DNA of 64,000 nucleotides from contig NC_052481.1 of assembly GCF_009730915.1 (NCBI RefSeq), positions 2,232,001 through 2,296,000 on the forward strand, written 5' to 3'. Shown here piece by piece: positions 4,297 through 63,960 of the stretch. Position numbers and translations under genes: made by a program. The notes below the pieces were generated by a model, which made no database searches, was not told where the DNA came from, and was given only the letters and a program-made list of their open reading frames with translations. Origin of the DNA: Dioscorea cayenensis subsp. rotundata. Lineage: Eukaryota > Streptophyta > Magnoliopsida > Dioscoreales > Dioscoreaceae. Positions within the stretch are counted from its first letter, which is position 1. The number at the start of each line of letters is the position of its first letter.

Positions 4297-4312
4297 TGGT
4301 ATCAGACTAGCT
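4297..4312 (+). promoter_or_regulatory. primer binding site (initiator tRNA-Met type)
   Basis: TGGTATCAGACTAGCT starts immediately after the 5' LTR. TGGTATCAGA is the usual plant copia primer site, complementary to the 3' end of initiator tRNA-Met. Confidence 0.85.
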
Positions 4313-4315
4313 AGG

Positions 4316-4640
4316 TTGCAGTGGCGTCGAACCCCGCCACTCCCTCTCCGGCGACCGCCGCCGTCCGCTCCGGCCGTGCCTATCTCCCCTGCGCCCACGC
4401 CCTGCCCAGCGTGCCCGGCGCTCCCGCCCGCCCAGCGCGCTCACGCTGCGCGCCCTGCGCCGCACGCCCGCGCGCCTGCGCCCGCCGCGCCCGCGCTCCC
4501 AGCGCCCCCATGCCCCGCGCCCTTGCCGCGCCCAGCGCCCGCGTCTGCCCAGCGCCCCCACCCCCAGCTGCCCGCGCCACGCCCCTGCCTGCGCACGCGC
4601 CCTGCGCGCTCGCCCCAGTAGGCTCATTGCGCACGCCTCT
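4316..4640 (+). other. extremely GC-rich leader of the copia element
   Basis: About 300 bp made almost wholly of GCGCCC/GCCCGC-type words between the primer site and gag. Open frames run through it on both strands but encode only Ala/Pro/Arg repeats, as any GC-only sequence would. It is followed by a T-rich tract (4685-4770). It is probably untranslated leader or expanded low-complexity sequence. Confidence 0.6.
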
Positions 4641-4860
4641 AGATCTCTCTCTGCTGGCCAGATCTGGTCAGCCTACCAGATCCACTTTTTCCTCTTTTTT
4701 TTTAATTTATTTTTTTTGTTTTTGGTGTTATTCTCTTGTTTGAGAATTGTTTTATTTTTTTTATTTCTTTTGTCTGATTGATTGTAAGTTAATTTGAGAA
4801 TCTTAAGGACTGATCTCGGACTCGAGTGGAGTTCTTCACGATGTCCGTCACCACGATATC

Positions 4861-5690
4861 TCCCACTCTGATGTGGTGCTTGATGGCACCAATTATATTC
4901 CATGGCGGCTTACTCTCAAGCCCATTCTTGATGGCATTCGTGTTCTTTCCCATGTTGACGGTACTTCTACTGCTCCAGCAGCTCCGACAGTCACTGATTC
5001 TGCCATTCTCAAAGCTTATGAGCAACAGCTTGAGAAGTGGATTGTCGATGATTCTACGACGCGGATGATTATTTGTCAGACTGTTACCATTGATATTCGC
5101 ACCCATATTGCAGATCTACCTACTGCTCGTGCGATGTGGAGCTACTTGGAGCGTCGTTACTGTGGTTCCAGTCAGGCACAGATCTATACCTTATATCAGG
5201 CCCTTGACACTCTGCATCAAGGGGAGGATACTGTTGATCACTACTATAGTAGATTCTGTGGGTTATGGCGCCAGATTGATGCCCTTACACCCTCCCACTG
5301 CCCTACCCACACTGCTCAGCTCCTTACTTGTACTGATGAGGCATGCACCGCTCGCCGTCGCCATGAGGAGTCACGACGTATGTATGCGTTCATTATGCGT
5401 CTACGTCCTGAGTTTGAGTCGACCCGGGCCCAGCTGTTACATGCCCCTACCACACACTCCTTAGATGAGGCATTCACTATTGTTCGTCTTTGAGGAGACT
5501 CGTCTCCGGGCTTCCTTCCGAGGCGAGTGCACTTGCTCGCTACTCGTCCTCCCCGCTCCTTCACCGCTACTCCATCCTCTTCTACTTTTGTTGCTTCTCG
5601 GTCTTCTCAGCGGCCGAAGAAGACTGTGACTTGCCACTATTGTGGCAATGTGGGACACTTTTGAGCGTGATTTGCCGAAAGAAGCAGCGA
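4861..5690 (+). pseudogene. gag: copia Gag with broken zinc knuckle
   Basis: The longest intact piece (4873-5493) begins with the LDGTNY.PW motif and continues as a UBN2/retrotransposon Gag domain with a W.YLERRY-like core. It stops at 5491-5493, and a neighbouring frame continues. A CCHC knuckle (C-HY-CGNVGH) is readable near 5628-5660, but a stop follows GHF and a one-base shift is needed to reach the last cysteine. No in-frame ATG upstream of LDGTNY is convincing. Capsid/nucleocapsid function is therefore lost from this copy. Confidence 0.85.
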
Positions 5691-6949
5691 GGCCTTCCCC
5701 GCATGACTTCATCATCGACTCCTCCACTCCTTCCCACACCTCCTTCTCAGACGCACTCAGCATCGACCTCCACTGTCTCTCTCTCTCCTGCCGATCAGCA
5801 GCAGCTATTGGTGATGCTTCGTCAGTTTCAGCAGTCGCATCCGGGCGACATCTCTACTGGTCAGGCACGTTCGGCTCAGGTTACTCCACCCACTCCAGGT
5901 AGTTCCTGTCCTCTTTGGCTTCTTGACTCTGGTGCTAGCTTTCACATGACACATGATGCCACTCATCTTCACCATTCTCATCCTTCTTCCCTTCATACTC
6001 GTGTTCGCATTGCTGATGGCACACTTTTACCTGTCTCTTCCACTGGTCATCTCTCCACTAGTGCTTTCTCTGTCCCTTCTGTATCTCATGTCCCTCATCT
6101 ATCCATGAACCTTATGTCTGTTAGTCAACTCACTGATTATGACTGTCAGGTCATTTTTGACCGGACCTCATGTCGTGTGCAGGATCACAGTGGAGCGGTG
6201 ATTGGAGCTGGCCGCCGCCATAGTGGAGTATATGCGCTGGATTCCCTTCGTCTTCCCTCTTCAGACAGTGCGCTTCTCATTGTTATCGTCGCTACTATAT
6301 CACATCATCACGTGGCATCATCGTCTTGGTCATTTATGTCGATCTCGTATGTCTTCTCTTGTCGATCGGGGTGTCCTAGGAGCGAGTCTCTCCTCCTTCC
6401 CGATGTTGTTTGTTTTGGTCAGTAAACTTGGCAAGCGATTCTGACGTCCTATCCATTGAGTCGATCTCAAACTAGTGCCCCTTTTTGACCTCATTCACTC
6501 TAATGTTTGGGGTCCCTGCTCCTTTTTGTATCTAAAAGGTGGCAATCGATATTATGTTATTTTTTTATTGATGATCACACACGATTTACACGGGTTTTAT
6601 TTTATGCATCATCGTAGTCGACTTTTATCTATATATCGCTCTTTTTACTACTATGGTGCACACTCAGTTCTCTGCCTCTATCAAGACCTTTAGGTCTGAT
6701 TCTGGCGGAGAATACACCTCCCATGCTTTTCGTACCCATTTGTCTTCTGAGGGCACCTTGCCTCAACTATCCTGTCCTGGGGCTCATCCTCAGAATGGGG
6801 TCGCTGAGCGCAAGCACCGCCACATTTTAGAGACAGCTCGAGCTCTCCTGCTTGGTTCATCTCTTCCTCCTCACTTACGGGGCCGATCTTTCGTTCACGC
6901 TGCCATCTACCTTATTAACTGCAACCATCATCCCATCTTCGAGTCGTAG
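5691..6949 (+). pseudogene. pol: copia protease and integrase region
   Basis: The aspartic-protease motif LDSGAS is at about 5921-5938, followed by a copia protease fold and NLMSVSQL-like segment. HHRLGH of the zinc-binding GAG-pre-integrase domain lies in another frame (6316-6333). The integrase core follows: the first catalytic motif reads HSNVWGP (6496-6516), with Asn where the catalytic Asp is expected. A later frame carries SDSGGEY and GVAERKHRH, the second Asp and the catalytic Glu. At least three frame changes occur in this stretch, so no active polyprotein can be made. Confidence 0.85.
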
Positions 6950-7535
6950 TCCCGGGTGAGTCCCTACATGGAACTCCCCTCGCTATGATCACCTTCGTGC
7001 TTTTGGTTGTCGTTGCTTTGTCTTACTCTCACCTCGGGAGCGGACAAAACTCACCACCCAGTCGGTTCTTTGTGTTTTTCTGGGGTATAGTCTTGAACAC
7101 AAAGGTTATCGTTGTTATGACCCAGTCACTCGTCGCTTTCGCATCTCTCGAGATGTCATATTTGATGAGACTACTCCTTTTTATGCTTCCCCCCCTTCTA
7201 CTACATCTACTTCTCCCACTGTTCCTCTTTCCTTCCTTTTTCCTCTCTCATTCACTGAGGATACTCCCCCAGCTTCCACTACTTCTCTACCACGTCCTCC
7301 TTCTCCAGAGCTTCTCTCTCATTCATCCCCTATTCCATCCCCTTCCTTATCGGTTGATTCCTCCTTACTTCCTTCAGTCTATCCTCCTATTCGTTATACT
7401 TATCATCGTCGGGAACCTGCAGCATCTTCACCTCCGGCGGTCCTCTCTGACACTCCTTCTACTGGTGATCCTGATCCTGAGGTACCCTCTCAGACTCATA
7501 CTTGGGATTTAGTTCCACTTCCTTCTCATGCTACT

Positions 7536-8110
7536 CCGATTACATAACGCTGGATTTACAGGGTGAAGACTCGTTCTGATGGGTCTCTCGAGCGCTATAA
7601 GGCGCGCTTGGTTGCTCGTGGTTTCCGGCGAGGAGCATGGTCGTGACTATGAGGAGACCTTTGCCCTGAGCCCACATGCATCTTGTCACGTATGTTGATT
7701 CTTTGCTACGGTTTGCTAGGGAGTGGACCCTACATCAACTTGATGTGAAGAATGCGTTTCTTCATGGTGACTTAAAAGAGAAAGTTTATATGACTCCTCC
7801 TCCTGGTCTTCGGGTGCCTCCAGGGACTGTTTGTCGACTTCGCCGTGCTCTTTATGGTCTTAAACAGGCTCCACGGGCCTGGTTTGTGCGATTCAGTACT
7901 GTTATTGAGGCGGCTGGTTTCACTTCGAGCATCCATGATTCGGCAGTCTTTGTTCATTCCTCACATCGCGGCCGCACTATTCTTCTACTCTATGTGGATG
8001 ACATGATTCTTCTGGAGATGATCCCCGCTCACATTGCCTTTGTGAAGCGTAACTACGTGAGACATTCTTGGTGGCCGATTTGGGTCCGCTCGTTACTTCT
8101 TGGGTATTGA
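7536..8110 (+). pseudogene. pol: copia reverse transcriptase
   Basis: The segment starts with the RT N-terminal motif KARLVARGF near 7591-7620, then a frame break. From 7676 it reads LDVKNAFLHGDL, YGLKQAPRAW and the catalytic box LLLYVDDMIL (7984-8013), all diagnostic for Ty1/copia RT. The frame ends at 8108-8110, before the thumb and RNase H. Confidence 0.9.
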
Positions 8111-8945
8111 GATCACTTCTCGGTTTGATGGCTACCAGTCTTACTCGGCACTGATATACTCTTGACCTTCTTGCTCGCTCGGCTTGAGTGATACTCGCCG
8201 TCTGTGCTACACCCATGGAGCTTCACTTGCGGCTCCGAGCTTCGATGGGACTCCTTTACCGATCCTCTCGATATCGACATCTTGTTGGCGGCTTGGTTTA
8301 CTTAGGCGTCACCGTCTGACATTTCTCATGCGATCCATATTACGAGTCGGTTTGTTGCGAGCTCCTACTTACATTCATTATGCACATCTTCTCCGAGTCA
8401 TCTGCGCTATCTTTGTGGTACTGCATCTCGTGGTCTATTCTATTCACGTCATTCCACTCTTCAGCTACAGGCCTATTCTGATGCTACTTAGGCTAGTTCC
8501 CCTGATGATCGGTTCTACATTCGCTACTCTGTATCTTTCTTGGATCTTCTCTCATTGTTTGGAAGACTAAGAAACAACATACGATGAGCTAAGTCCAAAG
8601 TCTGAGGGTCGAGGTTCGTGCTTTAGCTTCTACTTGTTCGAGGGAGGTGCTTTGGATTCGCTTCGATCCTACAGGACTTTTGGGATACCGCAAACCTCCC
8701 TATTCCTCTTCACTGTGATAGCACTGGGGCCCCCTTGATTGCTGGCGACACGGTCAAGCATGAGCTGACCAAACACATTGGAGTGGATGCCCATTTCACT
8801 CGATGTCATGTTCGTTCTCGAGACGAGTGTCTCTTCATTACCTTCCCACGGAGGTTCGGGTAGTCGACTTCTTCACCAAAGCGCGAGACTCGCGATCGAG
8901 CATCTTTTCATGTTATCCAAACTCGGACGTATGATCCGTCTTGAG
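8111..8945 (+). pseudogene. pol: copia RT C-terminus and RNase H remnant
   Basis: Similarity is shredded among three frames. The end of RNase H is recognisable near 8774-8850 (HIGVDAHFTRCHVR-like), followed by a VDFFTKA-like tail close to 8870. Frameshifts are numerous. Confidence 0.7.
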
Positions 8946-46902: not shown

Positions 46903-47633
46903 ATGGAATGTCAAATGGACATATATTAATAATAGAAGATAGGTAGGAAAACATATGTGTGAAAATTATAACTCCACGTGCTATGTATATTCCTTATTTG
47001 TAGGGTCAAGGAAAAAAAAAAATCAAACTCTAACGTCTATACAAGGTAAGAGCACATATGTATGAAAATAATAACTCCATGTGCCGCGCATATTCCTGAT
47101 TTGTAGGGTCAAGCAAAAAAAAATTACAATAGCTCTCGTGTTCCCTCAAAGCCAATGGTACTTTTGTGGTGTTTTTGAAATATTAGTTTTGTTAATTGGA
47201 AGCCCATTAAGATCCATTAAAATTTTAAGTTAGAAAAAATTCAATCGAACTCTAGTGGTCTTTTAAATCTAGAAAATATGACTTTTGGTTGTCTATCAAA
47301 TTTCGCTTAATGGGCTCAATCTATTGAAATTTAAATCCCAAAACAATTCACTCGAACTCTAGTGGTTATATTAATATTAACCTTCTGAATTAAATCAAAT
47401 TTTAGCAAATCATCAAATTAGGCATAATTGGCGTTCAGACCAGTCAAGGCCCACCATGACCCGAAGCACAATAAAAGGAGCAAAATAGTGTAATTGTGGT
47501 CCCTCAAATGATGAATTATGGGACTTTTATGGTTATTTAAAGTTCCGGTCTCCTGAGCGTTCATGCCCAACATAAGCCATTTAAACTGGTCCTAAAAATA
47601 TAATAAATTAGGTTTTGAGGGTCTACTAAATTA
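46903..47633. other. AT-rich spacer
   Basis: Contains a local duplication: GAAAATTATAACTCCACGTGC...TATTCCTTATTTGTAGGGTCAAG (about 46,960-47,011) recurs at about 47,064-47,116. No gene. Confidence 0.5.
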
Positions 47634-48354
47634 AAGGGTGTTTGGTTCGCGGTAATATGAATCATGTTTGGTTATAGTAGCAGTAGTAATGCTGATGGTA
47701 ATGTGAAATTATCAATAGTGAAATATTATTAAGTAAAATGATAATGTGATTACCACCAAAATAGGTGTCTGTCTGATGCGGGACATATCGAGGAGCTGGT
47801 CTGCGCATTCATGCAAAAATGGGATGTGAGTCATGTGACCTAACGGAGAGGTATTTTGATCATTTTTCCAGGTGTGGAGCGTTTGGGTTTTATGGGCCTA
47901 ACTTGATGGAAAATGGGTCAAATTCCATTATTTAGGCCTCAAAAACCCTAATTTTGCCGTTTTTGGTAATGATTGATTTCGTTATATCTTAGACTAGAAA
48001 TCTCTGATTTGTGAGTCGTTGTTAAGCCTTTTATTTTTTGCTGATATTTGAGAATTTACTATTTTTGGTATATTTTCAAATTATCTCTTTTCTTAGTGTT
48101 ATTTTGTGATCATTATTTTCTTGAGTGATAAGATTTTACTCTTCTCCCAATGCTGGTTATCTTTGATCAAAGGCCTTGGAAGGCTTGTCATCGGGTATTC
48201 TTTCTCGAATCAACGATTTCAAGTATACTATCCAGATTACCAAGTTGGTGGTAATGCGTAATGTTCTTTTTTTCCAATTATGCCCCCACTCATTTAATTT
48301 AATTCCTTATTACATTCATTATCAAAACCCTGGTTTTTATTTTCCCTTATTATT

Positions 48355-48798
48355 TTTATATTATAATTTAATATTTATTTATCTAAATACTTTAAATTAA
48401 GTTTTTCAAATTTTTATACGTAGGGGTATTTTGGTATTAAAAAATTGTGGAAAAAATAATTTTTGATATTATAATTTAATTATTTATTTATCTAAATACT
48501 TTAAATTAATATTTCCAAAATTTTATATATAGGGGTATTTTGGTAAATACAAAGTTATTTTAAAAAATTGTGAAAAGATAATTTTTAATATTATAATTTA
48601 ATTATTTATTTATCTAAATATTTAATATTATATTTTTCAAAATTTTATATTAGGGGTAATTTGGTAAATACAAAGGTATTTTAAAATTTTGTAAAAAAAA
48701 TAATTTTTAATATTTCAATTTAATTATTATTTATCTAAATACTTTAAATTATATTTTTCAAATTTTATATGTAAGTGTATTTTAATAAATTTGGTATA
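48355..48798. repeat. tandem repeat, about 109-122 bp unit, 4 copies
   Basis: Each unit carries ATTTATTTATCTAAATACTTT, then TTTCAAAATTTTATAT, GGGGTATTTTGGTAAATAC and AAAATTGTG.AAA. ATCTAAAT starts occur near 48,381, 48,490, 48,612 and 48,733. Very AT-rich. Confidence 0.85.
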
Positions 48799-49199
48799 TT
48801 ACTGAAGTGATTACCATGACTAAGCAAATATGGTAATGAAAAGATTACCAGTAATATAAATTCTCAACTAAATATGGTTGTTTATATATAGAAAAGAGAA
48901 GGAAGCCTTTTTAATTTGAATAAAACCCTAATCTTTATCTCTACCAGCATTAAATTTGGATTTAAATAAAATTTAGGGGAGATAAATGTCATTTTGAGCT
49001 TATCCATGCTTTAAAAAAAAAGAGAAGGGAATTTTAATATTTTATCCTGAATTCAGATTTTTTTTAAAAAAATAAATATATGTAAATTTAAAATTTGAGT
49101 TTTAAAAAATATATATCCGGATAATGCTAATCAAATTCAAATAAAAATCCGGATATTTGAAAAAATAAGGAGAGATTTTTTTTGGTTAAAAAAAATCAA

Positions 49200-49540
49200 A
49201 ACAATATGGTGGGCCCAGATTTTTTTGGTTGAGGATAGGATAATCTTCAAAGGGGGGGCGGGTCAAAAAAAATAAAATAAAAATATTTCAGCATGGCATG
49301 AAAAAGGAGGTTCTTTCCATGGTGGGACGGAGGTGAAAAAGAGAAGGAGGGCTAGTTTTCCCTTCCATTGCGGGACCGCTAGGATATAAAATATATATAA
49401 AAAAAATAGCATGGTGATGCATGATTGGAGGATCCTTTCTCCACGGTGGGACCGGGAGTACTAAAAAAAAAGAAGTCAGCATTTCATGCAAGGATGAAAG
49501 GCTTTCTCTCTTGATGCGGGACCCGGGTGAAGAAGATGAA
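49200..49540. repeat. degenerate repeats of a GGTGGGACC motif
   Basis: GGTGGGCCC, GGTGGGACGG, TGCGGGACCG, GGTGGGACCG and TGCGGGACCC occur at irregular spacing (about 50-115 bp) near 49,207, 49,320, 49,371, 49,444 and 49,514. They are preceded by CATGCAT/GCATGG-like words and CTTTCTC. Boundaries are fuzzy. Confidence 0.45.
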
Positions 49541-50890
49541 GGTATAAGAATCATGCATGTGGGAGCTCTTCTATGCTTCTTTCTCTCACTCTAAGAACTC
49601 TCTCTTACCTGCTAGACGATCCTCTCTTGATATCCAAATATTGACTCTCTTCTTCGATCCCGGACTCCCAAATTTAATCGGACTATATGTAAAGAAGAAA
49701 GGATGCATGTTCTCTCTTATTTTCTCTTTCCATTTCTTTTCTTTCATTGTATTCTCTCTATCTCTCTCTCTGAGAATCCACGAAGAGAACCAGTGTGGTG
49801 GTGTCCGAAGTGTTACCGACGACCTTGTTTGTTGTTTCAGCACGCTCCTCCTCGTTGCCACCTATTTGCATACACAAATAAAGAGATACTGGAATGATGA
49901 TATTGGTGTTGTTGTGAAGTTTGAAGTATGAGGAAGAAGAGAGTGAATATGATCGGATCGAAAGATGAAGAAGAGCAAGAATAGAATAGATAAGATGCTA
50001 TGCAAATGGATGGGATGGATGACGATGCAAAACTCCTTGCGAAGCTCATCGACGTTGTGCCATTTCTCACATGATGCATCTCGTTATGCAAGCTAGACTT
50101 CAGTACATGATCAACAACCTTAGCTCCCTACGTGCGACAACAACATTATGAGCCTTGTCATCCTTTTTGAAGACCTGCAAGTAATGGATTCCCGACCCGA
50201 TCGATCGTCTGACCGTCATTATCCTCCGTCTAAGGCCTCAACAAGAAAGTCCTATTGAGATGCTTGACGATGGTGATGCCCTCTTCATGAATCTCGAAGC
50301 ATTCTTGAGAAGTTCGTCACTCCAAAGAGGTAGATGACCTTATAAAATCTCATACCAAGTATATATATACAAGTATGTTTTGGTTTCGTTCAACCTATGC
50401 AAGATGCCATGAAGAAAAAAAATCTTAGATGAAAGTTCATGCAAAATACCTACATTTGGTTGTTAATCCCATGCATAATGCCATAGAGAAACAATATCAT
50501 CTTGATGAGGTAGATGAAACTCTATACAAAATGTATAAGATGCGTTCTGGTTGTACACCCCATACCCATGCCATAAAAAATCTTTAAATATTAATGCTAG
50601 ACCCTTCCCTCTGCATATTTTGTCTCTAAATCATGGACATAGACAAGAGTATATGCATGCTATTCATTTTTCACTCACTGTGAATTCCATCGTTTAAAAA
50701 AAAAAAAAGGAAAATTTTGAGGACACATGTGCAAAATTGTAAAAATGTGTGAAAACACGAAAGCTTGAGGGTTTAACTGCAAAAGCCATAAAAATATGAA
50801 AGTTTGAGAGTTTATTTGCAAAATTTTATAAAAGGTGAAAAATGTGAAAAGATAGAGGGTCTAAATGCAAAATAAAAAAAAGGAAGGTTT
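49541..50890. other. non-repetitive part of the 6.5-kb unit
   Basis: More GC-balanced from 49,560 to about 50,340. Short open pieces exist on both strands but none has a recognisable domain and stops are frequent, so this may be decayed captured gene sequence. The remainder is AT-rich, with AAAATGTGAAA.T.GAGGGT phrases repeated near 50,745-50,860. Confidence 0.35.
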
Positions 50891-50927
50891 TAGCAAAGAT
50901 GAGGGGTATTTTGGTAATTTTACAAGA

Positions 50928-51140
50928 CCCCCTTAAGCTTACCGTGATGTCCAATCCATGGCGACTGCTCTCCTTAAGAGGGCCTCCCCATTGCCTCTTG
51001 ATAGTCACAGAAGCAAATGGATTGTTGAAGACCCTTAAAGACTCCCTTAAGCTTACCGTGATGTGTAATGCATGTCAACTGCTCTCCTTAAAAGGGCCTC
51101 TTCATTGCCTCTTAATAGTCACGGAAGCGGATGAGTTATA
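50928..51140. repeat. two direct copies of a unit of about 113 bp
   Basis: CCCTTAAGCTTACCGTGATGT, ACTGCTCTCCTTAA.AGGGCCT and CATTGCCTCTT.ATAGTCAC appear at about 50,930-51,010 and again at about 51,043-51,123. Confidence 0.85.
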
Positions 51141-51147
51141 AAAGTTC

Positions 51148-51700
51148 CAAAACCTCTTAAAACTCTCTTTGAGCTCATGGACCCTATTTGAAGCCATTGA
51201 CTCTCTTAGGAGCGATGAAAAATCCCAAAGAAACCCGTAAAACTCTTTTTGAGCTCATGGACCCAATTTGAGGCCATTGACTCTCTTTGGAGTGATAAAA
51301 AGAATCCAAAATCCCTTAAAACTCTTTTTGAGCTCATGGACCCAATTTGAGGCCATTGACTCTCTTTGGAGTGATAAAAATAATCCAAAATCCCTTAAAA
51401 CTCTCTTTGAGCTTAAGGACCCAATTTGAGGCCATCGACTCTCTTAGGAGTGGTATGAAAAATTCCAAACCCTTAAAACTCTTTTTGAGCTCATGGACCC
51501 TGTTTGAGGCCATTGACTCTCTCTCTCTCGAGTGATGAAAAATTCCAAAAACCCTTAAAACTCTCTTTGATCTCATGAACTTTGTTTGAGGCCATTGACT
51601 CACTTAGAAGGGATAAAAAATTTTAAAACCCATAAAATTCTTTTTTGAGCTCATGGACCCCTTTTGAGGCCATTGACTCTCTTTAGAGTAACAAACAAAT
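51148..51700. repeat. tandem array, unit about 77-80 bp, about 7 copies
   Basis: Each unit reads CTTAAAACTCTTTTTGAGCTC, ATGGACCC.ATTTGAGGCC, ATTGACTCTCTTTGGAGTGAT, then AAAAATTCCAAAACC. Units begin near 51,158, 51,235, 51,315, 51,395, 51,473, 51,556 and 51,635. Minus-strand open frames across it are by-products of the repeat. Confidence 0.9.
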
Positions 51701-51799
51701 TTCAAGACCTTCAAAAGCGAAGCATTCTAAAACAAAAAAAAAGAGAGAGAAGAAGGAAAAATAAAAGAAGATGGGGAAAAAAAAATCAAAATCAAGGCA

Positions 51800-53640
51800 T
51801 TAAAAAATGATGAATCAACATATGAGCTCAACAACCTCAAGATTACAGTGTTGAAGAGTTCATAAGTTGCAAAAAGTTTCACAAGCCTGAAGACCGAAGC
51901 TTATGAAAAGTCAAATCAAGTTCCAAATCAAATCAAAGAATGCAAATTCAACAAATGAACCCAACAACCTCAAGGATGAAGAGTTGAAGAGTTCACAAGT
52001 TGTAAAAAGCTTCACAAGCATAAAAGCCGAAGTTCATGAAAAGCCAAACCATATTTGCGATTCCTCAATGCAGAGAATCTATAACTTAAAGTCCAGATCA
52101 AATTTAAGACAAACTCAAAACATCCAAATAAACGAGCTCAACAACCTCATTGTTGAAGCGTTGAGGAGTTCATAAGTTACAAAGAGCTTCACAAGCATGA
52201 AAACCGAAGCTTATAAAAAAATCAAATCAAGATCCAAATCAAATCCAAGATGCAAGTTCAAAGTCTAAGACCCAAGTTTCAAACAAATCAATAAATGAAC
52301 TCAACAACCTCAAAGCTAAAGCGTTGAAGAGTTCACAAGTTATAAAAGTTTCACAAGCCCAAAAGCCGAAGCTTATGAAAAGTCAAATCAAATTCCAAAT
52401 CAAATCAAAGTTGCAAATTCCAATATCCAAGTTCCAAGTTTCAAACAAATCAACAAATGAGCTCAATAACCTCATAGTTAAAGTGTTGAAGAGTTCACAA
52501 GTTGCAAAAAGCCTAACAAGCCTGAAGGCCGAAGCTTATAAAAAAAAAAATCAAATCAAGTTCCAAATCAAATTCAAGATACAAACTAAAAAGTTCAAGT
52601 TCCAAGTTTCAAACAAATCAACAAATGAGCTCAACAACAACAAAGTTAAAGTGTTGAAGAGTTCACAAGTTGCAAAAAGCTTCAAAAGCATGAAAGCCGA
52701 AGCTTATAAAAAAATCAAATCAAGTTCCAAATCAAATTCACGATGCAAGTTCAAAGTTCAAGTCACAAATTTCAAACAAGTCAACAAATGAGCTCAACAA
52801 CCTCAAAGTTAAAGTGTTGAAGAGTTCACAAGTTGCAAAAATAGCTTCACAAGCATGACAGGCGAAGCTTATGGAAGGTCAAACCAAGTTTGTGATTCAT
52901 CGACATAGGGAATTCACAGCTTGAAATTCAAATTAAATCTAAGATGCAAAATCAAATATTCAAGTTTCAAACAAGTCAACAAATGAGCTCAACAACCTCA
53001 AAGTTAAACCGTTGAAGAGTTCACAAGTTGCAAAAAGCCTCACAAACCCGAAGGCCAAAGCTTATAAAAAAATCAAATCAAGTTTCAAATCAAATCCAAG
53101 ATGCAAAATCAAAGATCCAAGTTTCAAACAAATCAACAAATGAGCCCAACAACCTCAAAATTAAAGCGTTGAAGAGTTCACAAGTTGCAAAAAGCCTCAC
53201 AAGCCCGAAGGCCGAAGCTTATAAAAAAATCAAATCAAGTTTCAAATCAAATCCAAGATGCAAGTTCAAAGTTCAAGATACAAATTTCAAATGAATCAAC
53301 AAATGAGCTCAACAACTTCATGGATAAAGCGTTGGGGAGTTCACAGGTTGCCAAAAGCTTTACAAGCATGAAAGCCGAAGCTTATGAAAAATCAAATTAA
53401 GTTTCAAATCAAAATCTAAGGTGCAAGTTCAAAATCAAAGATCCAAGTTTCGAACAAGTCAACAAATGAGCTCAACAACCTTAAGGATAAAGCGTTGGAG
53501 AGTTCACAAGTTGCAAAAAGTTTCACAAGCCTGAAAGCCGAAGCTTGTGAAAATTTAAATCAAGTTCCAAATCAAGTTCCAAATCAAGTTCCAAATCAAG
53601 TCCAAGATGCAAATTCAAATATCTAAGACACAACTTCACC
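51800..53640. repeat. tandem array, unit about 162 bp, 11 copies
   Basis: The motif GTTGAAGAGTTCACAAGTTG recurs near 51,849, 51,982, 52,159, 52,322, 52,484, 52,651, 52,813, 53,010, 53,167, 53,331 and 53,490. Each unit continues CAAAAAGCTTCACAAGC, AAAGCCGAAGCTTAT, AAATCAAATCAAGTTCC, CAAGTTTCAAACAAATCAAC and AAATGAGCTCAACAACCTCA. Spacings (133-197, mostly 157-167 bp) are not all multiples of three, so the Lys/Ser-rich open frames are not conserved across units. The size is close to nucleosomal satellite repeats, but the array is short and sits inside a transposon-like unit. Confidence 0.9.
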
Positions 53641-54050
53641 AGTTTTTTTTAAGTTATGTTCAAGATGCATATTTCGACCGTTGACGAAGACCAAAAGTCA
53701 ACAAAAGTCAAAGCGTAATTTTCGGCGAAATAGTCGGAAGGAGATAAAAGGCTACAATTATTGTTGCGTTAAGATGATTAAATTCCAAACTTCTTGTACT
53801 TTCAACGAAGTCTATGAATTCATGAATAAAAAATTTATTTGTCAGAATCTGTTTCTTTCTTCACACTTATTTTCTTAATCGGAGGTTCTTGTGACAATGT
53901 CCAGGGTAATTAACATTAGGGGTTTGCCCCTAATGGAAGTCATGAACCCACAATCCCTTGAAGTCTACAAAATATTAAAATTTGATTTGTGATCCATGCT
54001 TTTTATCCGGTCAATCCTAATCAAAGGCCGGATGGAAAGAAAGGAGCCCA
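53641..54050. other. tail of the 6.5-kb unit
   Basis: Follows the array. It includes AAAGTCAACAAAAGTCAAAGCG (about 53,693) and AATAAAAAATTTATTTGTC (53,824), the latter like a plant polyadenylation region. No gene recognised. It could derive from an LTR retrotransposon 3' end, but no LTR pair was found. Confidence 0.3.
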
Positions 54051-54146
54051 TAATGGTAATCTCACATTACCATAATATTCCTAGGCATATAACATACCCG
54101 ATCACATTACCATGGTAATATATCATTTCTGCAAATCAAACGCCTT

Positions 54147-54920
54147 CTAAGTCTTTCTTGTTTATTAAATCCAACAATAAGGTGCTATGAATTACAAAAT
54201 AAAAAAAACTAAAAATGTATTTAAAAATAAATAAAATAAATATGTGATATAAAATTATACATCAAGTCTTTTTTCCAACTCCATTGCTTAAATGCTGATT
54301 ATAAAATAGTGTGATTCAAAGTGTAATTTTGCATGATGTGGGGTTAGAATTTGATTTCAATAATATATTTGATTTGTAGTTAATAAAGTATTAGATTTTG
54401 ATTAATTGATTTATTAAAAATAATAATTTTACATCGGTTATTTTTCATAAATAGCCAATACTTGCTTAATGCAAGGAGTAAGGTATTTATCAGTGCATGA
54501 GCAGACACAGTTCAAAACCCTATGTTTGTGTACTATAATAATATTGTTCATATTACACAAAGTTTTATAAGAATGTGATAGATTTTTAAGAAGGGGACCC
54601 ACCAATGTGAAAGTTTTATTAGTTGGTGGGACTCACCGATTCTTTTTTATTTTTTATTTTTATTTTTGAATTAGATCATATCTTTTAATTTTTTATTATT
54701 ATTAAAATTTAACCATTTGATGATATCTTTTTTTTTTATTATTATTTTTAAAATGCAACTGTTGACCATATTATTTTATTTTTAAATTCAACCGTTGATC
54801 ATATATTTTTTTTAATTTTTCAATACTTAAATTTTTATTTAACCTCTATAAATACACCCATATACTCAAACAAACTTACATTCTTCTCCGCTTCTTCATC
54901 TTCTAATTTTCAATTATATT
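54147..54920. other. AT-rich leader of the PIF/Harbinger element
   Basis: AT-rich, with GGGACCCACCAATGTGAAAG and its near repeat GGTGGGACTCACC (about 54,595-54,640). Probably contains the left end of the Harbinger element, but I could not define a terminal repeat. Confidence 0.35.
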
Positions 54921-56110
54921 ATGAATAAAAATACTCCTCCATCTTCCTAAGCTCCAAATTTTCCAAATAATTTTCAAACTTTTTCATATTCTTTTTTCCC
55001 ACCAAATATGCAAGATTTCCAAAATTATCCTCAAAACTCACAAAATTATCCCACCTCACAAAATTTTTCCCATTTTTATCCAAATGTCTAAAATCAACCA
55101 AATTATCCATATGGTTATCCTATGTTTTCTGGACCCGGTTTCTTCAATCCAAGTATTGGTATGGCAAGTTAACAAATCAATATAAAAACAAGTGGCTATC
55201 GAATTCCTTCAAGCGACCTCAAAAATTTGGATAAAAGTTCTCGTGCTGATCAACAAAATACAACGGAAACAGGTTCATTTTCTGACTCTCAATTCCCCCT
55301 TTTTTCCACACAACCAGGGATTGAGAATAACATTATAAATGACGACCAACATGAAGATCAAGTTGAAAAACAACAACCTTGGAGCATGGAAGATGATAAA
55401 ATGCTTGTGAGTGCATGGCTTACAATTTCAACTGATAGCGTTGTGGGTACTACCCAGAATAATATAACGTTTTGGAAAAGAGTGACCGACTATTTCAATG
55501 AAAATCGGTGATCTGGTCCAAGGAGAAAAACAACAAGCTGTAAGCAATATTGGTTTTGGATACTTCCACTTATTAATAAATTTAATCAAATATACAATAG
55601 ATTATTAGGGGAGCATCATAGTGGATGGAGTGATGATCAATTGAAGGAACATGCTCGTACTCTATATTATCATAATCGTAAAAAACATTTCATCCATGAG
55701 CATGTTTGGGTCATGTTGAAAGATGATCTAAAATGAAAACCAAACACTTCTCTTGCTAGGTCTTCAAAGAAATTAAAGATCAATGAAAGCGGTGCATTGA
55801 TGTAGATGACAGTGAGATTGAGGCTCGTCCTATTGGCCAAAAAGCAGCAAAGGCAAAAGCAAAGGCCAAGAGAAAAGAAAAGTCAAATGTGGTCGAAAAA
55901 CCAAACGTGGACGAAGAAATGGAAGCAAGGTGGGTAGAATTACGAGAATGGAGGAATGAATAATTAGCAGAAGTGCGTAGTTTGAAAAAATCTTTTAAAA
56001 TGGTTGTTGATCATCAAATTTTGACAATGGATATTAGCCACATGAATGCTGAACAACTCAAGAATCATCGTCTTATGTACAATGTTATAAAATCAAAATA
56101 TAATATTTAA
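54921..56110 (+). pseudogene. PIF/Harbinger ORF1 (Myb/trihelix-like) pseudogene
   Basis: From an ATG at 54,921 the sequence reads as an Asn/Pro/Gln-rich N-terminus (FPPNMQDFQNYPQNSQNYP-like) with several stops. It then enters a Myb/SANT-like DNA-binding domain (WSMEDDKMLVSAWL at about 55,381-55,422; FWKRVTDYFNENR) and, after a stop, CKQYWFWI and RTLYYHNRKKHF. A Lys-rich segment and a terminal coiled region (MDISHMNAEQLKNHR) follow, ending near 56,110. In PIF/Harbinger elements ORF1 helps bind the ends and bring the transposase to the nucleus. Multiple nonsense changes make it inactive. Confidence 0.8.
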
Positions 56111-56494
56111 GTTTTATTTATTTTATTTTTAATGTAATATATTTTTAATATTATGTAATTTTAAATTTCGGTCATATAATGTAATTTTATTTTTAATGCA
56201 ATGTAATTTTAAATTAATGTGGTATCGTAATCAAATTTTATTTATAATGCTATGTAATTTGAATACACTAGCCCTTGTAAACTAGACATTTGAAAACTAA
56301 CCATTGTAAACTTGTCGTTTGAAACTAGCTGTTGTAAACTAGCCATTTGAAACTAACCGTTTGAAAACCAGCCGTTTGAAAACTAGTTATTATATTGTGC
56401 TATATGTATATATATATGAGAATAAGTTCCATGCTTCTCTACTTAACAAATTCGAAGTTTTATAAACTACATCACTTTGTTAACATTCTAGATA

Positions 56495-57782
56495 ATGGAT
56501 CCTGTCTAGTTGGAACAAATCAAGCAATTTTTGGTAGATAAGTTGATGGATGATTTGGAACGAAAGATGTATGTGTTACTAGAGGAATGAGAGAGGCGAA
56601 AAAAGGGTGAATCATCTAGTGGCCCTAGAAGAAGCCGAATGCATTTGAATCATGATCGTAAAGCAGTGAAAGGCATTTTAATGACTACTTCGTCGATGAA
56701 CCAGTTTATCCTAATAATGTATTTCTTCGAAGATTTCGAATGTGCAAGGCGTTATTTCTGCCAATCATAGATGCACTATCAAGTCATTCAGAATATTTCC
56801 AATTAAGGGTTGATGCAACTGGTAAACTAGGGCTTTCACCACTTCAAATATGTGCTGCTGCTATCCAACAATTAGCATATGAGGCACCGGCTGATTAGTA
56901 TGACGAGTACATACGAATTGCTGAATGTATTGTAATTGAATGACTATTTAAATTTTGTTGATTTATTATTGAAATTTTTACAGCAAGATATCTAACAAGA
57001 CCCAATAATGATGATATTGGACGTTTACTTCAATTACATTCTGAGTGACATGGCTTTCTTGGTATGCTTGGTAGCATAGATTGGATGCATTGCCATTGGA
57101 AAAATTGCCCAGTCGCATGGAAAGACCATTTCACTCGAGGGGATCAAGGGGTTCCAACAATTATGTAAGAAGCGGTTGCTTCAGCAGACCTATGGATTTG
57201 AAATTCATTCTTCGGAGTTACTGGTTCTAATAATGATATCAATGTGCTCAATCAATCTCCTCTGTTCAGTGAAGTATTACATGGGCATGCTCCGGAAATT
57301 CAGTTCAATATTAATGGTACAACATATATGAACGGATATTATCTTGCTGACGGCATATATCCAGATTGAGCAACATTTGTTAAAAGTTTTTCATATCCGG
57401 AAGACCCGAAGAGAATCAAGTTCAAACAAATGCAAGAGGTTGGAAGAAAATACGTTAAGCGAGCATTTGGTGTGCTTTAATCTCGATGGCAATTGTCCGT
57501 GGCCCTGCTCGTTTTTAGCACAGGGAAAAACTGAGAGATATAATGTACACATGCATAATATTGCATAACATGATTGTTGAAGATGAAGGGGATACAATTA
57601 CAAATTGGGATGACGAAGAAAGTGAATCTCCATTTCTCGTCAATCAAGGGTGCACTTAAGATTTTCAACAATACATAAGAAGAAATGCCAAAATACGTGA
57701 TCAAGAAGTACACCATCAACTTCGATCCGATTTAGTAGAGCACATTTGGCACCACTTCGGAGTGAACGAAAATGAAAATTAA
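56495..57782 (+). pseudogene. PIF/Harbinger DDE transposase (HARBI1-like) pseudogene
   Basis: Reading across frame breaks, motifs appear in family order: FRMCKALFLPI (about 56,735), LGLSPLQICAAAIQQLAYEAPAD (about 56,830-56,897), RPNNDDIGRLLQLH, LGMLGSIDWMHCHWKNCP (first Asp region, about 57,066-57,113), FFGVTGSNNDINVLNQSPLF (second Asp, about 57,211-57,270), INGTTYMNGYYLADGIYPD, then the C-terminal RAFGVL.SRW. At least eight in-frame stops interrupt it, many at places where relatives have Trp, Gln or Arg codons. With the ORF1 remnant upstream it forms one dead autonomous element. Confidence 0.88.
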
Positions 57783-59053
57783 TGCTTTTATGTCTTTTAT
57801 TAATGACTTTAATTATGTAATATTTTTAGGATTTTCTAATTTATATAAGTTATTTTTTATTTCTTGATCATTTTTGATAAATAATTTTTAGTTTTTTTTT
57901 GCATCACAAACTAATTATTTTTTTTTTGAAAATAATATAGAACTATTTTATTATATTTTAAATATTTATTTTGAAATATAATTTTAATTATGTTATTAAT
58001 TGTTTTGTTAATAATATTTAAGAATTTATTAAATAACTGTGCTTTAATGAAATATATTAATGTTAATAGTTAAAAGATGAATGAAATGATTGTAGGTATA
58101 TTTTATAGTATAAAATATTTATGAAAGATAGTTTAATGGGTAAGTGTTTGATGGGTTATATTTTATAGTATAATTATTATGAGAGCTAGTTTAATAAGTA
58201 AGAGTTTAATAGATTAATCAAGTGACATGAACATCAAACTTTCGGATAGTCTAATCATTAAAGATGCCCTCATTACAATCCACTTCCCCATTTATATGTC
58301 CCTTTCACTGCTACGAAAAATGTGAAATTTCTTTTTAACCAAAAATGTTACATAAAAGATGCATTGCATTTGCATGAGCAAACGTTGTATTGTATTTTAG
58401 TTCATCTTTTCTTTTTTTAAAACGTAGCTTCAAAAATATATTTACATTTATCCCAATTTATTGCCAAATATTTTGAATTATGATTTGATTGGCACTAACT
58501 AAAATAAATTGTTTTAGTTATAAAATTACTCATACCGGTCCAATTTACTTGTGTCAGAATTTTTTTAAATTAATATCTACTTTAAAAAATCTATAAAATA
58601 TTAATTAAAATTTTCAATTTTTATTTTTAATATAATCTTATATTTCTAATACATTCTGAAAATCAAACCATTATGTTAAGAGAAAATAAAAAAAATTATA
58701 AACAATTTAAAAAAATTTTATTGAGTTTTTAAATAAAAATAATTTTAAAAAATTAATATAATTTTATATAAATTTAAGATAATATCTAAATTTATCTTGG
58801 GTTCCACAGCTAGTAGACTTCTGATGTATTTTTTTCGTTGAGTTTTGGAATGAATGTGGTTTCACTTTTTTTCAAAAGAAGATAATATCTAAATTTTAAT
58901 AAACGTAAAGTGATTACAATGGAGAAATATATATATATATATATATATGAGATTAAATTATCTATGCACATTTGTAGATTTGAAATCTACAAACATTATT
59001 ATTAACCACCGTTAAATTCTGTTTCATAAACAGTGTTACTGTACTTATAAATA
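57783..59053. other. AT-rich spacer
   Basis: Likely includes the right end of the Harbinger element: TATTTTATAGTATAA and AGTTTAAT.GGTAAG phrases are duplicated near 58,098-58,160 and 58,160-58,210. (TA)n lies at about 58,929-58,948, and a perfect 11-bp-arm palindrome TTTGTAGATTTGAAATCTAC at about 58,971. No gene. Confidence 0.4.
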
Positions 59054-59530
59054 GGGATAGTTTCATTGGTGGCCACAAATGTTTTTAAGTTATAACGCTA
59101 TGGCCACAAGTCTTTTTTTTCTAACCCACGGCCACAAAAGTTTTCTCCGTAGCACGAGAGGCCACAAATGTTGCTTTTTATGGGTCAAGTTTCCGTGAAA
59201 GTGACGAGGTGGCGTCCACCTCAACATATTAAATTCAAAACTGTATCTGACTTGGCAGTCCAACACATGATCCTTTTAGGTTTTACTACGTTGCACTCCA
59301 GCTCAGCCCCCTTCAGTCCAACTAAGCCCCCTTCATCAAAACTCAGCCCCCTTTCTCTTCTCTTTGTCCCAAAAACCCTTCTTGTCTGAGCTTCCTAAGC
59401 AAGTGTCCCTTTTTTTAGTGAGCGCGCCTCTCCGCCCTGTCATCTATTCCTCTCCATTGATCTCCACCGTTTTGCCATCGGAAACCCTCGACCATCGCTG
59501 CAGACAACATCATCCCGGAACGACAACTAA
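59054..59530 (+). mobile_element. left end of a Mutator-like element
   Basis: GGGATAGTTTCATTGGTGGCC at 59,054 is a typical plant MULE terminal repeat start (relatives read AGGGTAGTTTCACTTGTGG). It is followed by spaced GGCCACAAATG/GGCCACAAGTC repeats (59,081, 59,112, 59,131, 59,160). The matching right end was not found before 64,000, so the element probably extends past the window. The sequence after 59,270 has CAGCCCCCTTC-type repeats and is probably the leader; a 73-codon frame here is not a recognised gene. Confidence 0.6.
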
Positions 59531-60375
59531 AGGTACCCATCTTACTGTTTTACTTCTTTATTGCAGTCCAAAGCTTAGACTACCCAACATTCTTTTGATT
59601 GCCTTCGATTTAGGCTATTACATCACGAGAACAATGAGTCCAGTAAAATATTAGATGAAGCCCCCAAGTTTAAAGGACATTTACCATACATATCGCCTAG
59701 ATCAAAAAGGACATTAATAAGTTATTAACAATCATTTAAAAAGAACACATATTATTAGTGTCTAATAAAAAAATTTGAAGGTCGATAATAAGTTAAAGAA
59801 TATTTAAAGGCCAATAATAGATTGAGAGAATGGAGGAGTAGAACCCCTATCATACACAAAAGTAGGCTTATCCGAATAAAAATGATTTTTGAACTCCGAA
59901 AAACATAGAAAAAGTGGAAAAATCCTTTACAAGAGGTGCATGTCTTACATATGAAATTATGCATGATTGATGTTGTGTAAATATTCCAATTCTGGGAGTT
60001 TAAGATGCCTTGAACATGGATGTCAAAATTTAGCTTGATTGTTCCACATAGATGCAGGTGCAAGTGCAGGTGTAGGTATTTAGCTTGATTGTTCCACATA
60101 TGAACTTGGATGCCTTGGTAGAATTTATTGGTCTAATATTTTTTAGATCAAATTTAGCATTAGAGGGAAGGATTTCTTGGATTTGGTAAGAAACTGAATG
60201 TATAGTTGCTTTCATAGAACAATTTATTATGTTGTTTCTTTAATTTGATTTTCATATTATGTTGTTTGATTTCATATTATCAATTATGTCCTGGTTTAAC
60301 TACGTCATAATTTTTTTTTGGCTTGTTATCATCACTGGCCTAATATGGCAATTTTTTCATGTTTTTAAATTCAAC

Positions 60376-62694
60376 ATGTCTGATATGGAAGGGGTGTTAA
60401 ATAGTAATGTGCAATCATTACCTCATGTAGAAGAGGAGTTTGTTGATTCTGATTATGATATGTCTTCTGGTGATGAGGATTATCAAGAGGTCATGAATGA
60501 ACAAAGGGAAAAAAGTAGAGGCAAACAAGCTGGTGACCTATCCTTCGCACAAGCTAGTTGTGTAACACAAGGAGTTGGTGGTGGAGATGTAAGTGAATCA
60601 GAGAATGATGAATCTGATGAGCTATTGACAGAGTCTGATTCAAATGGTGAGGGTCATATTAGGTTTGCAGAATTTAATGAAGAAAAGGAATTGTACAACC
60701 CACGGTTAAGGGTTGGAATGGTGTTTAGGGATTTTGACCAACTCAAAAAAGCATGCAGAAACTGGGGGATTAAGCACAGATTTCAATTATGGTTCCCCCA
60801 AAATGACAAGAAGAGAGTTATTTGTGCTTGTCACAACAAGAAATGCTCATTTAGGATTTATGCAGCTCACATGAGCAAAGACAATCCATCTGTGCAAATT
60901 AAGAGTGCAAATTTAGATCACAGCTGTGGGAAGGTCTTCAGTAATTTTCATGTGACTTCAAGGTGGCTTGCAACCAAATACTTTGACAAATTCAAGGCCG
61001 ATCCAAATTGGAGCTATAATGGGATAATTAAACAAGTCAAGGATGACCAAGGTATCACAATATCTCACATGAAAGCTTGGAGAACAAAAAATTTGGCTAT
61101 GAGGTGGGTTAATGGAGATGAGGCTGAGCAGTACACAAAACTTAGCATGTATGCAGCTGAGCTTAGACAAAGTAATCCTGGGACCACAGTAATTTTGTGG
61201 AGGGATGAAGGTGTCTTTCAAGGATTCTATGTCTGCCTAAAGCCCCTAAAGGATGCATTTTGGTCAGGATGTAGGCCATTCATAGGCTTTGATGGATGTC
61301 TTTTGAAAGGCATTTATGGTGGACAAGTTTTGTCAGCAATAGGTATTGATCCAAATGACTGCATATTTCCCCTTGCTTATGCAGTAGTTTTAACTGAGAG
61401 TAGACAGACTTGGACATGGTTCATGGAGCTTTTGAGGGATGATTTGGAGATATGGAATAGCAAATATATCACCATAATGAGTGATCGCCAAAAGGTAAAT
61501 TTCCATGCTTAAAACAAATTCTATTTATGCTAAAAACTAATTTATCTTTGTTATGTACATGTAGGGCTTAAAAAGGGCTGTTGAAGACATATTTCCAGAT
61601 GCTGAACACAGAAATTGTGTTCGGCACATTTACACAAATTTCAGAGAGAAATTCAAAGGGAAAACCCTAAAAGATTATTTGTGGAATGCTGCAAGGGCCA
61701 CATATGTGCAAAGGTTCAACTATTGGCTTGGAGAAATAGAGAAAGAGAGCCTAGAAGCCAGGAGATGGCTTGATCATCAAGACAGGCCCCATGCAAGCTG
61801 GACCAGGTCATTGTTCACAACTTCAAGCAAGTGTGATATTCTTCTCAACAATATTTGTGAGTGTTTTAACAGGTACATCCTTGATGCAAGGGATAAGGGA
61901 ATCATCACAATGCTTGAGATGATCAAGATGAAGTCGATGAGGAGAATATAAGGAGAAAAATGTTGAAGTACAATGGGAAGATATGCCCAAAGATCCAAAA
62001 GAAGCTTGACAAGATGAAGGAGGAAAGCCATTGCTACACCCCAGAATTTTCAGGTGGACCCAAGGTCCAGATCATAGGTGTGGGGGAGACCTTCATTGTT
62101 GACATGGTTGAAAATACTTGCACATGTAGAAGATGGGAGTTAACAGGGTCACCTTGCCCTCACGCAATCAGTGCTATATATGGTAACAATCAGCAGCCAG
62201 AAGAATTTGTGCATGCGTGCTACATGGTGGATACATACATGAAGGTCTACCATCACTTCATAAACCCAACCAACAATGAAGAGCTTTGGCCAGAAGTAAA
62301 TGATGGCACAAGAGTGATCCCACCACCAGTTGGGAGAAGAAAAAGGGGAAGGAGAGCAATAGCAAGGAGGAAAGAGGCTGAAGAAATTGAGAATGCCCAA
62401 CATGCATCAAAATCCAGTGGTAATACTTCTGGGAAAGGCAAACAAAAATTAATTAGGAAGGGATTAAGCAAAGGGAGGTGTAGTGTATGTCATGCAATTG
62501 GCCATAACAAAAGGCATCACGAGAAAGTAAGTATTTTTTATTTATTTCAGTTCAGTTGAAATGCATTAGTTGAATGATTTTAAATATCAGCAATTTTTTT
62601 TTTAAAAATCTGTATTTTATGATGCCAGGGGATTGAGAATGCACCTACACATGCACCTTCAAGTGTTGGCCCAAAAAGACAGAAATTACATCAT
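60376..62694 (+). CDS. MULE (MuDR) transposase, one frame break
   Basis: Exon 1 60376-61494, exon 2 61565-62526, exon 3 62629-62694, all with canonical splice sites; a possible fourth exon (about 62,785-62,966) is open but its junction does not fit the phase. Domains: acidic N-terminus (about 1-105), MuDR DNA-binding domain (CACHNKKCSFRIYA zinc motif), the Mutator DDE core with FIGFDGCLLKG (Asp1), IMSDRQKG across the exon junction (Asp2) and NNICECFN (Glu), then a SWIM zinc finger CTCRRWELTGSPCPHA and a C-terminal CSVCHAIGHNKRHH knuckle. ATG 60,376 is preferred over the upstream in-frame ATG at 60,259, which adds an unlikely hydrophobic stretch. The only lesion seen is a stop plus frameshift at about 61,949-61,960, between Glu and SWIM. 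Confidence 0.88.
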
Positions 62695-63244: not shown

Positions 63245-63960
63245 ATTGTGTTAATTTTTTTCCCGGGATTTTTGTAACCAGTGATTTGTCTCGTGCACAT
63301 TTACTCCCGACTTGTGATGGAGATATGTATTATGCTAATTTTTTTCCCCGGGATTTCTGCAACTCAGTGATTTATTTATTATGAAGTTTTTTTATTCTCG
63401 GGGTTTCATTAGATTTGTATCATGCTATTTATTCCCAGTGTTTTACGCAATTTAGTAGATTTGTATTGTGCACATTTATTCCCATGTTTCAGACATGTTT
63501 GAATTGTTAAAAATTTATTCTCGGGGTTTCAACAAACTATATGGAGTAAATTTTTTTCCCGAGATTTTGTAACTTCAGCAGATTTGTCTTTGTGCACATT
63601 TATTCCCGACTTTGTGATGGAGATATGTATTATGCTAATTTTTCCCCCAGGTTTCTACAACTCAACAGCTTTATTTATTATGAAGTTTTTATTCTCAGGT
63701 TTCATTAGATTTGTATCATGCTAATTTATTCCCAGGTTTCTGCAGTTCAGTAGATTTGTATTGTGCACATTTATTCCCATCATGTTTCAGCAGGTTTGTA
63801 ATCTTAAAATTTATTCTCAGGATTTTGTCATCTGTTTGCAAAATCCTTGTTGTAAAAATTAGCACATTTTTTCCCTCAGTTTTGAAATCTGTTTGCAAAT
63901 TTTGATACATACAAGTCTGCATACTTGTATTTCTTTAAAACTGTAAATTGATATTGATTT
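63245..63960. repeat. nested tandem repeat, period about 299 bp with 50-60-bp subunits
   Basis: GTGCACATTTAYTCCCGACTTTGTGATGGAGATATGTATTATGCTA phrases start near 63,292 and again near 63,591. Within each, subunits of the form TTTRTTCYCRGGTTTC...ATTAGATTTGTATCATGCTAATTTATTCCC recur every 50-60 bp (ATTCTCGGGG, ATTCCCAGG, ATTCTCAGG, TTCCCGAG). The array continues to the end of the window, at least in degenerate form. It may be the 3' subterminal region of the MULE. Confidence 0.8.

Follow-up and report, generated by a model that had tools for sequence, protein, structure and literature searches.

Does a single DNA transposon gather several satellite-like arrays and carry them about the genome? 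This question was raised by a window of Dioscorea cayenensis subsp. rotundata DNA (64,000 nucleotides; GCF_009730915.1, NC_052481.1, positions 2,232,001-2,296,000 of the forward strand), in which the interval 47634-54146 (window positions, as throughout) was described in an initial annotation as one 6.5-kb transposon-like unit bearing at least five tandem-repeat families. The window was judged to be plant DNA from its open frames, and the genome searched comprised 584 Mb in 2,249 contigs. The analysis showed that the interval is almost certainly a nest of three transposable elements and not a single transposon. The host is a DNA transposon resembling a miniature inverted-repeat transposable element (MITE), and later insertions of long terminal repeat (LTR) type, 5,174 bp (insert 2) and 455 bp (insert 1) in length, occupy most of the 6,513 bp; therefore, the contents between the two ends are not one transposon.

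The edges of insert 2 were placed by matches elsewhere in the genome. On the right (best 40 of 1,420 candidates scored), the stretch 53646-54050/54054 matched 39 other places at 94-98%, and all of these matches ended at 54050-54055. Twenty-nine right-edge loci were fetched, and the 16 with a plus-strand match all ended in GCCCA(C/T)A, followed by differing DNA in 12 and by the primer-site-like stretch AAGTCTG.CAC.CCC.GTGGGGAC in the other four. With query 48800-50900, 12 rows started at 48877-48879, five started 5-13 bases before 48879, and further rows started later; among 29 loci, the start TGTTTATATAG was read in 14 distinct copies (17 rows), each time with different flanks. A full-length relative, C6:21625488-21642564, is flanked by CCTAA repeats; its LTRs, 5,710 and 5,747 bp long, run from TGTTTATATAG to GCCCACA, and it contains an integrase core (PF00665, E 1.7e-13), while the solo C15 copy is 4,144 bp long with TAAAC on both sides. 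The family of insert 2 has two LTRs around an internal part, a TG start, a CA end and a 5-bp duplication, as LTR retrotransposons do, and candidate stretches for a primer binding site and polypurine tract (TCTGGCACGCCCGGTGGGGAC, GAGGGGGGCAT) were seen. Since the window copy has its own ATGGT duplication on both sides and is related to the full-length C6 and solo C15 copies, it is a solo LTR. The two LTRs of C6 (L039-L041) show no differences among 428 sites at the 3' end but 58 among 1,132 at the 5' end; gene conversion or misalignment could explain this.

Most of the tandem repeats of the interval lie within this LTR. The 162-, 79-, and 114-bp arrays, like the GGTGGGACC-type motifs, can be aligned with the C6 LTR and were brought by the retrotransposon LTR. 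Unit numbers vary among copies: the array of about 162 bp has 11 units in the window copy, compared with 17 and 18 in the two LTRs of C6 and 8 in the solo LTR of C15, and the units of about 79 bp number 7, 5 and 6, and 5, respectively. The arrays first reported in the interval are real, as Tandem Repeats Finder, an ungapped repeat search and anchor counts showed between them. However, they are not housed in one 6.5-kb unit, because the three arrays and the motifs named above belong to a 5.2-kb LTR that has its own duplication and occurs elsewhere with other flanks.

Insert 1, in the left arm of the host, belongs to another LTR family (start TGATGCGGGAC, end GCTGCATCA), and the window copy is without the last bases of GCTGCATCA. 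A search with 47634-48233 (best 40 of 926 candidates scored) gave, apart from the window itself, no match beyond query bases 133-597 (window 47766-48230). Family copy L006 is 570 bp long and lies between two CAAAT repeats, as expected of a solo LTR with a 5-bp duplication, and copies L003 and L005 continue into the primer-site-like stretches TTTGGTACCAGAGCC / TTTGGTACTAGAGCC. The idea that the 455 bp are a native part of the host was dropped because the C12 copy of the host, described below, is without them.

The host element itself was recognized by its ends. A direct TAA duplication lies at both borders, which shows that the borders given by the initial annotation were correct within a few bases. 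The alignment of the two ends scored 29.5, a value reached by none of 2000 dinucleotide shuffles and by 1 of 2964 random window pairs; under another scoring the test was weaker, and the observed score was reached by 6 of 2964 random pairs. The C12 copy (1,266 bp) is without both inserts; its inverted ends are in register, it is flanked by TAA at either end, and its array has seven units. In the C1121 copy, too, the left and right ends belong to a single element, which has a TGA/TGA duplication. The proposal that the long inverted ends are one pair was thus borne out. The family shows the marks of a MITE or other non-autonomous element, namely terminal inverted repeats, a short duplication and numerous copies that share ends and interior. 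No coding capacity was seen in the host element. The initial annotation saw no transposase in the interval, and none was recognized here: among frames of at least 70 amino acids none looked transposase-like by eye, and the two frames run against Pfam, 49548-49928 and 50848-51138, had no match above threshold (best E 0.07 and 0.1). The window has four exact GGTAAT/ATTACC palindromes (spacer of at most 12), and every one of them falls inside the unit; 100 shuffles gave a mean of 0.11 and a maximum of 2. The palindromes could plausibly be transposase-binding sites.

Sites of the host that are empty of insert 2 were sought with a joined query (48800-48878 plus 54058-54149, 171 bases; best 40 of 443 candidates scored). 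The matches ran across the join in 39 of 39 other scored places, so that the right arm directly continues 48800-48878 once insert 2 is removed. Twelve of these 39 places were also among the places found with the host interior, contiguous and on the same strand, both sets coming from best-scored lists. These empty-site copies refute the interval as one mobile unit. The stretch 47634-48885 had also been considered as a complete element of its own, and this was dropped after the joined-query matches across the join. Two side observations concern the host copies. L077 (C19:7426300-7427110) is a truncated host piece of about 305 bp; the G+C-rich DNA around it contains a motif, starting with CGCACG, that is repeated at a spacing of about 304 bp, and a split match like that of L077 (joined-query bases 1-141 plus 127-166) was seen at several other places. 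The copy at C16:5479648-5480893 has the longest span of the host copies, and its unlike flanks look as if two copies had recombined. The features of the interval are collected in Table 1.

Table 1. Elements, duplications, palindromes and arrays of the nested interval, in window positions
Feature	Position	Strand	Basis or remark
Host element, MITE-like DNA transposon with two LTR insertions inside	47635..54147	+	Insert-free length 879 bp; inverted ends, TAA duplication, C12 copy, joined-site matches
TAA target duplication, left copy	47632..47634	.	
TAA target duplication, right copy	54148..54150	.	
Left terminal inverted repeat, AGGGTGTTTGGTTCGCGG...	47635..47658	+	One base shorter than the C12 end
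Right terminal inverted repeat, GAAGGCGTTTGATTTGCAG...	54124..54147	-	Minus-strand reading
Palindrome ATTACC-N8-GGTAAT, host element	48236..48255	.	
Palindrome GGTAAT-N6-ATTACC, host element	48832..48849	.	
Palindrome GGTAAT-N5-ATTACC, right arm of host element	54055..54071	.	
Palindrome ATTACC-N2-GGTAAT, right arm of host element	54106..54119	.	
Native host array, about 4 units of 122 bp, very A+T-rich	48349..48790	+	Tandem Repeats Finder, ungapped repeats, C12 copy
Insert 1, 455-bp partial solo LTR, TGATGCGGGAC...CAAGTATAC, in left arm of host	47774..48228	+	
Insert 2, solo LTR of 5,174 bp, start TGTTTATATATAG, end GCCCATA	48879..54052	+	Family end GCCCACA
ATGGT 5-bp target duplication, left copy	48874..48878	.	
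ATGGT 5-bp target duplication, right copy	54053..54057	.	
GGTGGGACC-type motifs, LTR part	49252..49541	+	Align with C6 LTR bases 412-602, three pieces
LTR array, 2 units at 114-bp spacing	50924..51144	+	Ungapped repeat search, 107 bp x2
LTR array, 7 units of about 79 bp	51146..51700	+	Tandem Repeats Finder 79 bp x7; anchor count
LTR array, 11 units of about 162 bp	51810..53627	+	Anchor count; Tandem Repeats Finder 163 bp x8.9 at 52130-53605

The following history almost certainly accounts for these features. A non-autonomous MITE-like DNA transposon, already bearing about four units of 122 bp and several palindromes, inserted with the TAA duplication. Its family would have spread the array, ready-made, to many places, and some copies later gained or lost whole units or blocks, probably through unequal exchange or slippage. 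An LTR retrotransposon of another family entered the left arm and was reduced to the 455-bp solo LTR, with its last bases lost. Another retrotransposon, whose very long LTRs (4.1 to 5.7 kb where measured) carry arrays, entered the right arm with the ATGGT duplication, and its missing internal part suggests reduction to a solo LTR by LTR-LTR recombination. Both retrotransposon insertions came after the host element, in either order.

Several observations weigh against the nest as described here. For the host, both ends were read in only four other copies (C12, C1121, C16 and C17). The C16 copy (L082, L083) has both ends between the unlike flanks TAG and AAA, the left end of the C17 copy has decayed and its flanks show no clear duplication, and the C3 copy has lost its left end. 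The TGA duplication of C1121 differs from the TWA (TTA or TAA) expected of PIF/Harbinger elements. When one mismatch was allowed, nine palindromes were found in the window, seven of them in the unit, and this total was not unusual (shuffle mean 5.03, maximum 11). For the inserts, no clean duplication was found at the borders of insert 1 in the window; upstream of the C6 integrase an RNase H-like piece was weak (E 0.016) and two other pieces had no Pfam match; and among four LTR copies fetched for their edges only C15 had both edges and a duplication, no start being found in L042 and L043 and L045 being a 5' LTR. The unit counts of the arrays were made by anchors and depend on the mismatch limit.

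Concerning the superfamily of the host, the 3-bp duplications and the type of end indicate that the element is probably of PIF/Harbinger type. Its ends, of the type GGG.GTTTGGTT, appear to resemble those of PIF/Tourist elements. Like PIF/Harbinger (Tourist-type) MITEs, which have short inverted ends of this form, the host makes a 3-bp duplication, has many copies and shows no coding capacity; unlike them, it contains a 122-bp tandem array and one of its copies has TGA instead of TWA. It is unlikely that the nest is as described but the host is a member of some other superfamily that makes 3-bp duplications. The duplications read as TAA in the window, TAA in C12 and TGA in C1121, which is not strictly TWA, and this speaks for such a superfamily, while the 3-bp length and the presumed PIF/Tourist likeness of the ends speak for PIF/Harbinger. 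The initial annotation had expected multiple copies with 3-bp TWA duplications and variable unit number; many copies and a varying unit number were found, with TAA/TAA in C12, TGA in C1121 and no duplication in C16.

The initial annotation had also named a dead Harbinger transposase to the right of the unit as a possible mobilizer. The frames there (55173-57568) are broken and, by eye, may derive from a Harbinger element. None of five pieces matched Pfam at E 0.1, four of them were retried and gave nothing at E 10, and neither GGTAAT nor ATTACC was found between 54120 and 60416; this presumed Harbinger is therefore not supported as the mobilizer of the unit. The one candidate end of the neighbor, GAGGGCATCTTTAATG (minus strand, 58256-58271), is unlike the ends of the unit, and no opposite-strand partner of it was found at up to 4 mismatches within 53001-59500.

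The one array that belongs to the host is the array first reported at about 115 bp. At 48367-48770 Tandem Repeats Finder gave two periods, 109 and 122 bp, and the anchor count gave four units of about 122 bp in the window, compared with seven in the C12 copy and one in a truncated C19 copy. The interior was searched with a 650-base query (best 40 of 368 candidates scored; 63 rows); after removal of the row for the window itself and of 13 weak ones (E 1.6e-8 to 6.3e-4), the remaining 49 rows were merged, which placed the interior with the array in at least 40 places. The span of the interior was 631-693 bp in 30 of these 40 places, as expected for four units, five other places were shorter, and five were longer (894, 904, 1019, 1027 and 1151 bp, or about two, three and four extra units), 1,151 bp being the longest interior among the scored places. 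Interior lengths thus differ between copies by about multiples of 122 bp, and the longer spans would hold more units, as judged from length in every copy except C12. Within C12, units 1 and 4 are 95% identical, 3 and 6 95%, and 2 and 5 92%, while unit 2 is 93% identical to units 4 and 6; this pattern suggests, without proving, that a three-unit block was duplicated.

The 122-bp array appears to have travelled with the host element. The other explanation, that it was not carried during the spread and arose by convergent local duplication in each copy, is very improbable. The varying unit number would agree with it, but three quarters of the interior places (30 of 40) have about the length of the four-unit window copy, the long matches follow almost all of the 650-base query collinearly, at 84-90%, and the first window unit is 97% identical to C12 unit 4. 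The suggestion that a transposon served as a vehicle for arrays therefore stands for this array, whose unit number varies between copies, and falls for the others, which are in the LTR. A further possibility, which we offer tentatively and consider rather doubtful, is that this plant DNA-transposon family carried a ready-made 122-bp array to many sites, where it grew and shrank by whole blocks and at some sites seeded new satellites, and so acted as a satellite nursery independent of the LTR arrays. The host family, with many dispersed four-unit copies and some of about six to eight units by length, offers a natural series on the timing and manner of array length change.

The initial reading, a single 6.5-kb DNA transposon that gathered and spread at least five satellite-like arrays, is scarcely credible now. 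It had in its favor the paired inverted ends with TAA at the borders and all the arrays between them, but the LTR is sharply bounded, is flanked by a 5-bp duplication of its own and occurs in many copies between other flanks, it is absent at the junction in all 39 other scored host places, and C12 is without either insert. About 86% of the interval is interior DNA that occurs without the ends, which the initial annotation had named as grounds for rejecting its own reading. That the two ends come from unrelated MITEs (one at 47634-48880, the other ending at 54147) flanking an array cluster by chance can practically be dismissed: a third GGTAAT/ATTACC cluster at 48800-48850 does resemble another end, but it is contiguous with the right end in those same 39 places, and in C12, which refutes this explanation, and in C1121 a single element has both ends, with the 3-bp duplication shared between them.

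Other features of the window were also noted. Mutator-like transposase frames lie at 60244-62559 (frame 60244-61509, PF03108 E 2.4e-12 and PF10551 E 1.7e-7), open frames at 4311-8570 look Ty1/copia-like by eye and include a G+C-rich tandem stretch at 4387-4613, and a tandem repeat of 296 bp in 1.9 copies occupies 63253-63825. Three DNA patterns were searched for in viral contigs, and no relatives were found.

The nest of three elements shows that nested insertions can mimic one exotic transposon, and that a DNA transposon and an LTR can each deliver arrays of variable unit number to the same spot. Known systems of the first kind are described in the literature: Xenopus miDNA4 and Xstir are MITE-borne satellite arrays (PMC12628747, PMC9659126), rye D1100 is a MITE-derived satellite and a plant case (PMC9659126, PMC6947457), and tables in PMC6947457 and PMC9659126 list further cases. 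The references of PMC6947457 include a 2004 title on the spreading of minisatellites by transposable elements in rice. We make no claim of the first plant MITE with an internal array. As in miDNA4, Xstir and D1100, a non-autonomous DNA transposon carries or yields a tandem array and spreads it genome-wide; unlike them, the element here has 3-bp duplications and an A+T-rich unit of about 122 bp, and the array is known here only as an element-borne one. For the second kind, the internal arrays of Ogre/Tat Ty3-gypsy elements are described as sources of satellites (PMC7004042), with Gmr9/GmOgre and PisTR-A named as Tat/Ogre array cases (PMC9659126); the sugar-beet minisatellite paper (PMC2820488) was set aside as not relevant to this locus. 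The Tat/Ogre elements are alike in having several unrelated tandem arrays of variable unit number inside one LTR retrotransposon family. In them the arrays are 3' untranslated, downstream of the coding region, whereas here they lie inside both LTRs. That the arrays sit within the LTRs instead of ahead of the 3' LTR is a minor difference; every part of the nest is of a known kind, and both types of array carriage are already in the literature.

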